The notes under the pieces were generated by a model. The model saw only the letters and a program-made list of their open reading frames with translations, was not told the origin of the DNA and did no database searches. This document shows positions 6,562 through 36,349 of a DNA stretch of 37,625 nt, in pieces; the first letter of the stretch is position 1; each line of letters opens with the position of its first letter. Source of the DNA: Candidatus Blautia merdipullorum (GTDB lineage Bacteria; Bacillota; Clostridia; Lachnospirales; Lachnospiraceae); assembly GCA_019118685.1 (NCBI GenBank), contig DWYL01000215.1, forward strand, positions 1-37,625, in the 5' to 3' direction. Position numbers and translations under genes: made by a program.

Positions 6562-6608
6562 ATTATGGAGCTGTGCAGATGCAGGGAAATACGCGGAAGA
6601 ATATAAAG

Positions 6609-6708
6609 AGGCAGAAAGTAAAGAAGACGCAGGGATATTTGTACATTTTATGGGAATTTGCCGAGTACGGCTTAAAATGTATAAATATCCCTGATTTGGT
6701 TCCTGCCT
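6609..6708. repeat. Palindromic intergenic element, copy A
   Basis: A 21-base arm (6630-6650) pairs with 6673-6693 with a single mismatch, and the tip contains a second stem GCCG/CGGC. Weak outer arms AGGCAG (6609-6614) and CTGCCT (6703-6708) flank it. The 32 bases 6629-6660 match the reverse complement of 33958-33989 at 28 of 32 positions, so it is a copy of the same element found near 33.9 kb, in the opposite orientation and without that copy's long inner hairpin. It fills the gap between the DUF2935 remnant and the hydrolase-GNAT gene and may act as a terminator, but there is no clean T-tract. Confidence 0.85.
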
Positions 6709-6788
6709 TTGGATAATGCAGGGTTTGTATGGCATTTTTGGGGAAAAGCTGTATAATGGAGATAATAATAAACAGAGGAGCAGAGATT

Positions 6789-29941: not shown

Positions 29942-29978
29942 AAGAGAAAGAGGTGCGACAGCCTCTTTCTCTTCTTTT
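29942..29978 (+). terminator. Terminator of the trehalose operon
   Basis: AAGAGAAAGAGG (29942-29953) is perfectly complementary to 29962-29973 around an eight-base loop, followed by a short T-rich tract. The 13 bases TGCGACAGCCTCT (29954-29966) are also found at 34002-34014 in the right end of palindromic element copy B. Confidence 0.85.
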
Positions 29979-33339: not shown

Positions 33340-33858
33340 ATGAAAAAATTGCTGGTAGTAGTGGATATGCAGAAAGACTTTATTGATGGGGTCCTGGGAA
33401 CGGCGGAAGCTGTAAAAATTGTGGAACCGGCGGCTGCAAAGATCAGGGAGGCTAAAGAACAGGGCGAAGATATTATCTTTACAAAAGACACCCATCATAA
33501 GGATTATCTTATGATCCAGGAGGGAAGAAAACTTCCTGTGCCTCACTGTGTGAAAGGAACTCGTGGATGGGAACTGGATGACAGGATCGGGGAACTGGCC
33601 CGGGGCTGCAGGATCCTGGAAAAACCTTCTTTTGGAAGCATGGAGCTGGCTGCGCTGGCACAGCAGGAAAATTATGAAGAGATTGAACTGATCGGATTGT
33701 GTACGGATATCTGTGTGATCTCTAATGCTATGCTTTTAAAAGCTGCCTTGCCGGAAGCAGTGATCAAAGTAGATCCTTTCTGCTGTGCAGGAGTTACTCC
33801 GGAGAGCCATAAAAATGCTCTGGAGGCTATGAGAACCTGCCAGATAGAGTTGTCCTAG
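33340..33858 (+). CDS. Isochorismatase-family cysteine hydrolase, nicotinamidase-like
   Basis: A 172-residue enzyme with the complete Asp-Lys-Cys triad of the family: D9 in 'VVVDMQKDF', K95 in 'LEKPSFGS' and C125 in 'GLCTDICVISN'. The zinc-binding pattern D50-x-H52 ('FTKDTHHKDY') is that of nicotinamidases such as PncA, so deamidation of nicotinamide to nicotinate for NAD salvage is the best guess. The protein is somewhat shorter than typical PncA, and other amidase activities are possible. GAAAGGCGGG precedes the ATG. Palindromic element copy B begins seven bases after the stop. Confidence 0.85.
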   Translation: MKKLLVVVDMQKDFIDGVLGTAEAVKIVEPAAAKIREAKEQGEDIIFTKDTHHKDYLMIQEGRKLPVPHCVKGTRGWELDDRIGELARGCRILEKPSFGSMELAALAQQENYEEIELIGLCTDICVISNAMLLKAALPEAVIKVDPFCCAGVTPESHKNALEAMRTCQIELS

Positions 33859-33864
33859 AAAACG

Positions 33865-34014
33865 AGAGGCTGTCCCATTAATCAAAATCGAGAATATTTA
33901 TACATTTTATTGCTCAGTCTGCGCAGCTTTGAGCCTATGGTCTCAAAGCTTGCTTGACAAATTCGCATAAAATGTATAAATATTCCTGACATATGATTAA
34001 TTGCGACAGCCTCT
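33865..34014. repeat. Palindromic intergenic element, copy B
   Basis: A 150-base nested palindrome between two convergent genes. Outer arms: AGAGGCTGTC (33865-33874) and GACAGCCTCT (34005-34014), then ATTAATCA/TGATTAAT. Middle arms: 19 perfect bases, 33892-33910 with 33967-33985. Inner hairpin: AGCTTTGAG (33925-33933) with CTCAAAGCT (33942-33950). The middle arm is shared with copy A at 6.6 kb in reverse orientation (28 of 32 bases). The right outer arm reaches into the stop codon of the kinase gene on the minus strand. It probably works as a bidirectional terminator; a mobile origin is possible. Confidence 0.88.
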
Positions 34015-36349
34015 ATGGTTTTAGAAAAGTAATTTCCGCGGTGAAAAGATCAGCGTCTGTGAAGATTTCCAGCCTTCCGCCCTGAAGCTCTGTAAAACTT
34101 TTAGCAATAGCCAGGCCAAGACCGCTGCCTTCTGTATTTCTGGAAGTATCTCCTCTGACAAACCGTTCCGTGATTTCGCTGGGATTGAAAGTCAGTTCGG
34201 TAGCTGAGATATTTTTCATTGAAATTTTTACATGATTTTCAGTATTTTCCATAGTGATATACACTCTGGTATGAGGCATGGCATATTTTGTGATATTTAT
34301 TAACAGGTTTTCGAATATCCGGTAGGTGCGCTGGGAATCCAGGGAAAGGATCACCTTTTCCTCCGGGAGCTGCCAGCGGAAATACAGATCTGTGGCATCA
34401 ATTTTATCCTGGAGTTCCAGTTTCACCTGGCGCAGCAGGCTGACAATGTCAACATCCATTATATTCAGCTGCACGGTTTTGCTGGTAGCCTTGCTGATCT
34501 CAAATAGGTCTTCGATAAGTACCTTCAGACGGTTGGCTTTTTGATCCAGGATTTGAATGTATTTTCCCTGGTCTTCTCTGGAAAGTCCGGGGTCTTTCAA
34601 GAGATCCACATAGGTGATGATCGCCGTAAGAGGTGTCTTCAGGTCATGGGACACATTGGTGATCAGATCTGTCTTCATTTTTGTGCTTTTTACCTCTTCA
34701 TCCACAGCCCTTTGGAAACCGGTGCGGATCTTGTCGATCTCTTCACGGAAGGGTTCAAAGACACCCAGATCATCAGGGATCGTCCCGTTTAAATTTCCCT
34801 GGGCCAGCTCATTGGTAGCCTGAAGGAGGAGCTGATACTGATCCTGGATATTACGCACATATCTGCGCAGAAGGAAGAACAAAATGACCGAGTAAATAAT
34901 CAGGGCAGCCAGTCCCCAGTACCATAGAAGGCTGATGAAGCCCAGTATGATGAAATTTATCAGAACAAGCTTTAAAAGCACCCGGGAAGCATTATCCCGA
35001 AGATCTATATGGAGAAGTCCCTGATAGATCCGTTTCGCCCATTTTACCATCCATGGCCAGATCCGGTAGGTAAGCACCCGTCTGCGGAGATATTCTCTGG
35101 GACCCATGACAAAAATATGCCGGAAACAGGCAGCAGTCCAGTAGCAGACCGCAAAGATCAGCACCCAGCCCAGAAGCCCCCAGAGATACTGGATAACAGT
35201 AGCAGCGCCTTCATGAAGACCTATACTCACAAGCACACTCCGGATAGACTGATGATCCAGAGTACTGGGATCTGCCGTTACACTGACTCCAAGGCTGACT
35301 ATACACAGAGAGATCAGGCATACCGGTTCAAAGGGATAAGAGAAGATTTTCTCATTTCCTGTCTCTAAAACCTTTACAAAGGGAAGAAGAAGGGCTGCCG
35401 CAGCCACAAATCCCACAAAGGTCATAAACAGCACAAGGAGATCTCCTGCAGCATCATAAGTATCGCCTGCGTATAAAATAGAGGGATCATAGTCTGAAAA
35501 AGATTCCAGAGCTGTTTTTGTCATGGCGAAGCAATAGATCCTGTTCTGAGGAGGCTGAAAAGTTTCCGAAAAAGAAAAAGAATAGTACTCCCTGAGGGAA
35601 TCTGCAGGATCATTTCTTGCAATTTCATTTAAAGCCTGGGAAGCATTATCCTTCTCATGGGTAAGGAAAGTAGTAGATTCAATATTTCCTTTCGCACCGT
35701 ATTCGATCACTGCCACAAAGGCATAACCGCTGCTGGAGTCCAGCACAGAGTTTGTCTGGATATTGTCCAGAGACTCATAAAGGGAATCCTGACTATCTGC
35801 CAGAGACTGGTTGGAATCCAGTGTGCTTCCGGTTTCATCCAGCACTTCATATTCGATAAAGGAACGGATCTCGGAAAATTTCGTATTCCAGTTATTATAC
35901 ATAGTTTGAAAATCATCGGAAACCCCATAGAGATCCTCTTCGGGGGTTGCTTCTGCGGCGTCTTCTTCCGGGGAAGATTCTTCAGTGTCTGGACTTTGAG
36001 CAGCCCCATCCTCTGAAGAAGGTTCTTCGGAGTCGGTATCTTCTGAAGTCTCCTGATCAGAAGAATTCTGTTCCCTTTGTGTTTCCAGGGAAGTATCTCT
36101 TTGAAAAAAGATCTCAAAAGGAGTCAGGCTGCTTCCATGTTCCCTCTGGTATTCTTCTGCATAGAGGACGTAAGTATCCTTTACGAGCTGATCCATCAGA
36201 TCTGTATTGGAATAGGAGATCTGTCCGTTTTCTTTCTGCTGGCTGATGTAATGAGGCCGTATGAACATCATTGCCAGGGACGGCAGAAGGATGACCAGAG
36301 CGATGATCACAGCAGCCAGTTTATGATAGTTTTTCGATTTTATATCCAA
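34013..36349 (-). CDS. Membrane sensor histidine kinase with acidic extracellular linker
   Basis: A 778-residue kinase. A first helix (about 10-30) is followed by a large outer region (31 to about 300), which includes a low-complexity Glu/Asp/Ser/Pro stretch (about 95-140). Four or so further membrane helices lie between 305 and 480. A HAMP-like segment ('LLLQATNELAQGNLNG') leads to the phospho-acceptor H568 in 'TNVSHDLKTPLT'. The N box is 'NLLINITKYA' and the G2 box 'GSGLGLAIAKS'. The usual G1 aspartate motif is replaced by 'ISMKNISAT', as in some other clostridial kinases. The start is a TTG, supported by AAAGGTGGTG seven bases before it and by the membrane helix. It overlaps the response regulator gene by 29 bases. 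The signal is unknown. Confidence 0.88.
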   Translation of the reverse strand: MDIKSKNYHKLAAVIIALVILLPSLAMMFIRPHYISQQKENGQISYSNTDLMDQLVKDTYVLYAEEYQREHGSSLTPFEIFFQRDTSLETQREQNSSDQETSEDTDSEEPSSEDGAAQSPDTEESSPEEDAAEATPEEDLYGVSDDFQTMYNNWNTKFSEIRSFIEYEVLDETGSTLDSNQSLADSQDSLYESLDNIQTNSVLDSSSGYAFVAVIEYGAKGNIESTTFLTHEKDNASQALNEIARNDPADSLREYYSFSFSETFQPPQNRIYCFAMTKTALESFSDYDPSILYAGDTYDAAGDLLVLFMTFVGFVAAAALLLPFVKVLETGNEKIFSYPFEPVCLISLCIVSLGVSVTADPSTLDHQSIRSVLVSIGLHEGAATVIQYLWGLLGWVLIFAVCYWTAACFRHIFVMGPREYLRRRVLTYRIWPWMVKWAKRIYQGLLHIDLRDNASRVLLKLVLINFIILGFISLLWYWGLAALIIYSVILFFLLRRYVRNIQDQYQLLLQATNELAQGNLNGTIPDDLGVFEPFREEIDKIRTGFQRAVDEEVKSTKMKTDLITNVSHDLKTPLTAIITYVDLLKDPGLSREDQGKYIQILDQKANRLKVLIEDLFEISKATSKTVQLNIMDVDIVSLLRQVKLELQDKIDATDLYFRWQLPEEKVILSLDSQRTYRIFENLLINITKYAMPHTRVYITMENTENHVKISMKNISATELTFNPSEITERFVRGDTSRNTEGSGLGLAIAKSFTELQGGRLEIFTDADLFTAEITFLKP

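Follow-up and report, generated by a model that had tools for sequence, protein, structure and literature searches.

The nested palindrome at 33865-34014 of the window, the whole 37,625-nucleotide stretch of Candidatus Blautia merdipullorum DNA that was analysed, belongs to a family of mobile elements without earlier description. The explanation that we prefer, and consider probably correct, is that the palindrome is a transposable element of about 146 bp that is non-autonomous, carries a terminator and replaces stem-loops, an IS1182-like transposase mobilising it in trans. Insertion would take place at a hairpin already present, in most cases the intrinsic terminator at the 3' end of a gene, and that hairpin would be removed wholly or partly without duplication of the target site. 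The outer stem of the element would be substituted for it and, together with the adjacent A- and T-tracts, would form a bidirectional terminator. An IS1182-family-like transposase would supply the mobilisation in trans. Internal deletions, which are frequent, reduce the palindrome to its outer stem, in appearance a plain terminator. The dispersed copies, the replacement at orthologous sites, the insertion into the hairpin of another copy, the two orientations per site, the compensated stems and the genomic context are directly observed.

A preliminary description of this DNA had read three concentric inverted repeats in the palindrome, and all three levels are present. The outer arms (33865-33877 and 34002-34014) match at 12 of 13 positions and the middle arms (33892-33910 and 33967-33985) at 19 of 19; the inner arms (33925-33933 and 33942-33950) are taken from direct reading of the sequence. 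The outer stem is G+C-rich and the 19-bp middle stem is A+T-rich, in a unit of about 146 bp. Folded as RNA, the window copy reaches -68.5 kcal/mol as compared with a shuffled mean of -30.0 (z -9.9), and the opposite strand also folds far better than its shuffled versions (z -11.1). The features, with the evidence for each in brackets, are as follows.

33340..33858, + strand: upstream convergent gene, isochorismatase domain; its 3' end adjoins the element
33865..34014, + strand: whole element copy, ends GAGGCTGTCCC...GCGACAGCCTC (inverted repeats, copy searches, covariance model)
33866..33883, + strand: left arm of the outer stem, doubling as terminal inverted repeat and predicted terminator stem (repeat search, fold, covariation)
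33892..33910, + strand: left arm of the middle stem, GAATATTTATACATTTTAT (repeat search, copies, covariation)
33911..33966, + strand: asymmetric core conserved in three genera, TGCTCAGTCTGCGC ... TGCTYGACAAATTCGC (core model searches)
33925..33933, + strand: left arm of the inner hairpin, AGCTTTGAG (sequence reading, fold, covariation)
33942..33950, + strand: right arm of the inner hairpin, CTCAAAGCT (sequence reading, fold, covariation)
33967..33985, + strand: right arm of the middle stem (repeat search, copies, covariation)
33995..34013, + strand: right arm of the outer stem (repeat search, fold, covariation)
34013..36349, - strand: facing convergent gene, sensor histidine kinase; its 3' end adjoins the element
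6603..6714, - strand: shortened second copy, inner hairpin lost and with another outer stem, AGAGGCAG / CTGCCTTT (covariance model)

The second copy was recovered by the covariance model at about 6603-6714 with an E value of about 1e-8, and the 28 of 32 matches reported earlier between 33958-33989 and 6629-6660 are correct on direct comparison. The preliminary description had also seen the outer arm recur in the treC terminator (29954-29966) and had proposed on that basis that the outer and middle stems are separable modules. This recurrence is not clearly above chance: the outer-arm motif has 5 matches in the window against 2.07 expected, and 5 of 100 shuffles reach 5. The treC terminator is an ordinary hairpin; we dropped it as a separate module because the motif is at chance level, and the modular reading built on it is unsupported.

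The suggestion that the palindrome belongs to a dispersed family is borne out by copy number, location and pairs of occupied and empty sites. Further copies are plentiful in its own genome (G000; 3.67 Mb in 362 contigs), which holds about 30 near-full copies with 82-100% identity as well as partial ones, and the 17-base middle arm has 81 matches there as against 8 for a reversed control. The family occurs in 13 of the 20 Blautia genomes searched (this one and 12 of the 19 others), and a BLAST search of 41 genomes outside the genus Blautia returned no copies. Named carriers are Candidatus Blautia pullistercoris, avicola, stercorigallinarum and stercoripullorum and Blautia sp. An81, the last corresponding to our genome G019, with identical copies and flanks. 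Altogether our collection comprises 122 distinct full copies, each with its flanks, from 82 independent sites. No Rfam 15 model scored at its gathering threshold (the sub-threshold matches were chance ones, mainly to microRNA models), searches of phages, plasmids and viral contigs gave no copies of the palindrome, and nothing relevant was found in the literature on terminator-targeting repeats or on Blautia repeats.

Orthologous sites in relatives reveal how the element inserts. The comparison of occupied and empty sites that had been proposed earlier succeeded, including at the window locus itself: in the nearest relative (G018) the same pair of genes is separated by a simple terminator hairpin whose right-hand flanking bases match those of the window, and in G003 an unrelated hairpin takes the position of the element. 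At this locus, G019 has the element in the window orientation, G001, G002 and G011 have it inverted, and the copy of G014 is internally deleted. At locus L029, three genomes (G001, G014 and G018) carry a 24-base hairpin between ACAAAGCG and CAATGTTT, and G019 carries an internally deleted element between the same two sequences, both flanks being intact. The same exchange is seen at the left junction of locus L010. Clean pairs of this kind come from three loci, and the G019 copy at the best of them is internally deleted. In two further cases (L173 and L099) a resident copy has had its inner hairpin replaced by another copy, and in three (L013, L036 and L192) copies lie within the stem of an older terminator. 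Complementarity between the two flanks of the element exceeds chance, which fits leftovers of a target hairpin. Both orientations occur in 8 of 24 ortholog groups, so that one terminator can be occupied either way. Target-site duplications, which the preliminary description had proposed to look for, were not seen, because insertion replaces a stem-loop. These observations support insertion by stem-loop replacement, a better-defined mechanism than the mobile terminator first suggested.

The outer stem travels with the rest of the unit, since recent G019 copies share the same ends, including a left/right mismatch (GGAG / CCCC) that is repeated at many unrelated sites. The same observation rules out that the outer stem is taken from pre-existing terminators; another argument against that origin is that simple, short hairpins whose stem reads GGCTGYCGCA are rare, with 0-2 sites in each Blautia genome.

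This behaviour has a close counterpart. IS1272 and TnSha1, members of the IS1182 family, target hairpins including terminators, delete the stem-loop and make no target duplication (PMC5678879, PMC4923244), and one site can be used repeatedly and in both orientations (PMC5678879, PMC4923244). The Blautia element is alike in each of these respects, and its ends resemble those of Blautia IS1182 copies; it differs from IS1272, which has a transposase gene, in being gene-less, 146 bp long and palindromic throughout, with its own terminator. The family ends in GGRGCTGTCGC...GCGACAGCCCC, and Blautia IS1182 copies end in GGGGCTGTCGG (six copies in G008) or GGGGCTATCGG (G001 and G019), so that about 10 terminal bases agree and the subterminal sequence differs. 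In G008, near-identical IS1182-family copies (L222, L232, L211, L355, L356 and L357) end in GGGGCTGTCGG; several G008 IS1182 copies have paired flanks and no duplications, and the flanks of L355, AAAAGTAA / TTACTTTT, are complementary, as expected for insertion into hairpins. Full-length or strong matches to an IS1182 transposase are present in G001, G006, G007, G013 and G019, and the search found none in the fragmented assembly G000 or in G012, G014 and G017. No transposase recurs beside the copies; the recurrent neighbours are only the abundant transporter, response-regulator and kinase families. The palindromic target and the absence of target duplication, as seen in the hairpin exchange, the nested case and the complementary flanks, are those of an IS1182 MITE. 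We do not file the element as one, because no IS sharing its long (27-base) ends was found in G000 or G019. From the behaviour of IS1272 and TnSha1 and the likeness of the Blautia IS1182 ends, which together make mobilisation in trans by an IS1182 relative plausible, we infer the enzyme; that an IS1182-family-like transposase does move the palindrome strikes us as roughly an even chance. In the literature searched, no gene-less element with stem-loop-replacing behaviour was found.

The copies sit where terminators would be expected. At the 73 sites with usable flanks, neighbouring genes, taken from mechanically called ORFs, are convergent at 26, codirectional at 41 and divergent at 6 (67 of 73 not divergent), and the nearest ORF lies at a median of 28-37 nt. 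A T-tract follows the element at 47 of 82 sites and an A-tract precedes it at 51 of 82; 50 nt further out, the background is 10 and 12 sites, respectively. The tracts and the placement at gene 3' ends are the setting of bidirectional intrinsic terminators, and the family as a whole shows the structure that defines an intrinsic terminator, in which a T-tract comes after a G+C-rich hairpin where a gene ends. We infer from these sequence features that the outer stem and the neighbouring A- and T-tracts would act as a bidirectional terminator in vivo. The element shares with rho-independent bidirectional terminators the G+C-rich outer stem between A- and T-tracts and the location at gene 3' ends, and differs from them by its 19-bp A+T-rich stem, by a conserved core superfluous to termination and by its mobility. 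The proposal that the palindrome is a mobile element serving as a bidirectional terminator, or else a structured RNA, thus stood as to mobility, location and site pairs, with termination predicted; the RNA alternative we keep, as an unlikely one.

According to that alternative, the core serves the cell as a structured RNA or as a DNA hairpin (for example in 3'-UTR processing or protein binding), the copies are under selection and their spread is secondary. What speaks for it is conservation of the core across three genera: a 60-nt core model finds copies in two further Lachnospiraceae genera, at least 13 in G358 and three each in G144 and G435, with long, nearly perfectly paired stems whose sequence varies by site. 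The core helices of G358 carry compensatory changes relative to Blautia (GUC:GAC to GCC:GGC and UUUGAG:CUCAAA to UUCGAG:CUCGAA), and an ortholog pair from G144 and G435 (L377 and L378) has an identical core amid compensated changes in the arms. Among Blautia orthologous copies, the inner stem (0.8% change) and the middle stem (3.5%) evolve more slowly than the flanks (7.2%). The unpaired core, at 5.3%, does not differ significantly from the flanks, and an early reading of clear purifying selection on it weakened with independent pairs. Against a functional core also stand the patchy distribution (3 of 334 genera sampled across Lachnospiraceae with the core model) with tens of copies, the speed with which orthologous sites gain, lose and invert the element, and the frequent removal of the core by internal deletion. 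Several points count against the transposable element that we prefer: the searches found neither an IS with its longer ends in G000 or G019 nor an IS1182 transposase in G000, its identity to IS1182 ends covers only about 10 bases, the clean pairs of occupied and empty sites come from only three loci, and a conserved core with slower inner and middle stems is not predicted for a purely selfish element. The mobilising machinery may read the core as a recognition site, or the element may have acquired a function through its RNA or DNA structure. Directly upstream of one full copy, in the left flank of L389 (G144), lies a truncated second core (GGGTCTGCGCTCGGTTTGAG).

REP and BIME elements, which are mobilised by RAYT transposases, are likewise palindromic, dispersed, located at gene 3' ends and compensated in their stems, and a REP element is a 20-40 nt palindrome with a GTAG-type foot. 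A REP/BIME-like element moved by a Y1 transposase (RAYT or IS200/IS605-type) that recognises the hairpin as single-stranded DNA would account for these shared properties, and palindromes of this kind with a conserved unpaired core are akin to the hairpin substrates of HUH enzymes. The Blautia element is much longer, at about 146 bp, with a conserved central core and with GGRGCTG rather than GTAG at the base of its stem, and the precise exchange of hairpins is better matched by IS1182-type behaviour; we regard a Y1 origin as improbable. Short dispersed repeats of another genus offer a different comparison. In the excerpts of two papers that describe SPRITE, RUP and BOX of Streptococcus pneumoniae, these repeats insert into one another and SPRITE is similar to a rho-independent terminator (PMC10969869, PMC3049150). 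Compared by description rather than by sequence, the Blautia element is alike as a short dispersed, terminator-like repeat with nested insertion; stem-loop replacement is a feature of the Blautia element that those excerpts do not mention for SPRITE, RUP or BOX.

Compensatory base changes, whose absence had been named as evidence against a structured element, are abundant. Across 78 copies, two-sided changes occur in 22 of 22 outer pairs and 9 of 19 middle pairs; cells with two-sided changes number 204 as compared with 70.6 in shuffles and far fewer in slid controls, a count that overstates the number of events as the copies are related. The outer stem changes faster than the flanks yet remains 82% paired, a percentage biased towards the structure, which was derived from the same sequences. 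Even strong covariation in dispersed hairpins is, on its own, insufficient proof of an RNA gene. Part of it could arise without selection, through strand-switch correction of palindromes, and L023, L028 and L109, whose arms have changed places around the centre, suggest that such events occur. These swapped arms and the inversions of whole elements, both of which point to inversion or template switching, together with the fast but paired outer stem, would also suit ordinary terminators kept alike by recombination or gene conversion without transposition, with quasipalindrome correction supplying the covariation, a reading we consider very improbable because gene conversion can neither put a 146-bp unit at an unrelated hairpin with unrelated flanks kept intact nor insert one copy into another. 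Resident copies may still undergo strand-switch correction as a secondary process.

Decay of the element is also visible. Remnants that lack the middle and inner parts and keep the outer stem are frequent (L036, L042, L043, L242 and L243; L033 and L035 possibly retain the outer stem only), and internally deleted remnants are found in G014 at the window locus, in G002 and G011 at L010 and in G018 at L017. Such remnants resemble ordinary terminators. One half copy (L330, G000:C273:37270) stops at TTTTATTGCTC within the core and continues as unrelated sequence, and thus one-sided truncations occur too.

Other repeats were noted around these loci. Upstream of the deleted window-locus copy of G014 (L258) is an extra stretch bounded by ATGATACC / GGTATCAT and then a GGGGGCTTTTGCCCCC hairpin, which looks like a second palindromic repeat or an inserted element. 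Orthologs of the L017 locus (L303 in G011, L304 in G002, L306 in G001 and L294 in G014) have other short palindromes, with CCGCCCTNCGGGCTCC and TCTCATGCGGG motifs, at the intergenic position where the element would lie, which hints that terminators host other repeat families as well. In G015, G019 and G007 (L268, L269 and L270), a 68-base fragment of an isochorismatase gene 3' end is followed by an IS1182-like end, GGGGCTGTCGGTTAATA, as if the gene end had been captured by an IS or transposon.

The element brings a replacement hairpin for the terminator that it removes, and it can therefore probably spread with little harm to the host. A more far-reaching version, which we hold only tentatively and think somewhat doubtful, is that the family is a distinct gene-less class in which a structured core is read by a dedicated factor, the arms are free in sequence and fixed in pairing, and spread proceeds by swapping host terminators, making the terminators of whole genomes interchangeable mobile parts. 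If the explanation that we prefer is right, a mobile element equipped with a terminator of its own is exchanging terminators, a niche in which a selfish element does almost no harm, and the mode of insertion that replaces hairpins would extend from gene-carrying IS to gene-less palindromes. The family is a source of many natural pairs of occupied and empty sites for the study of structure-directed insertion.
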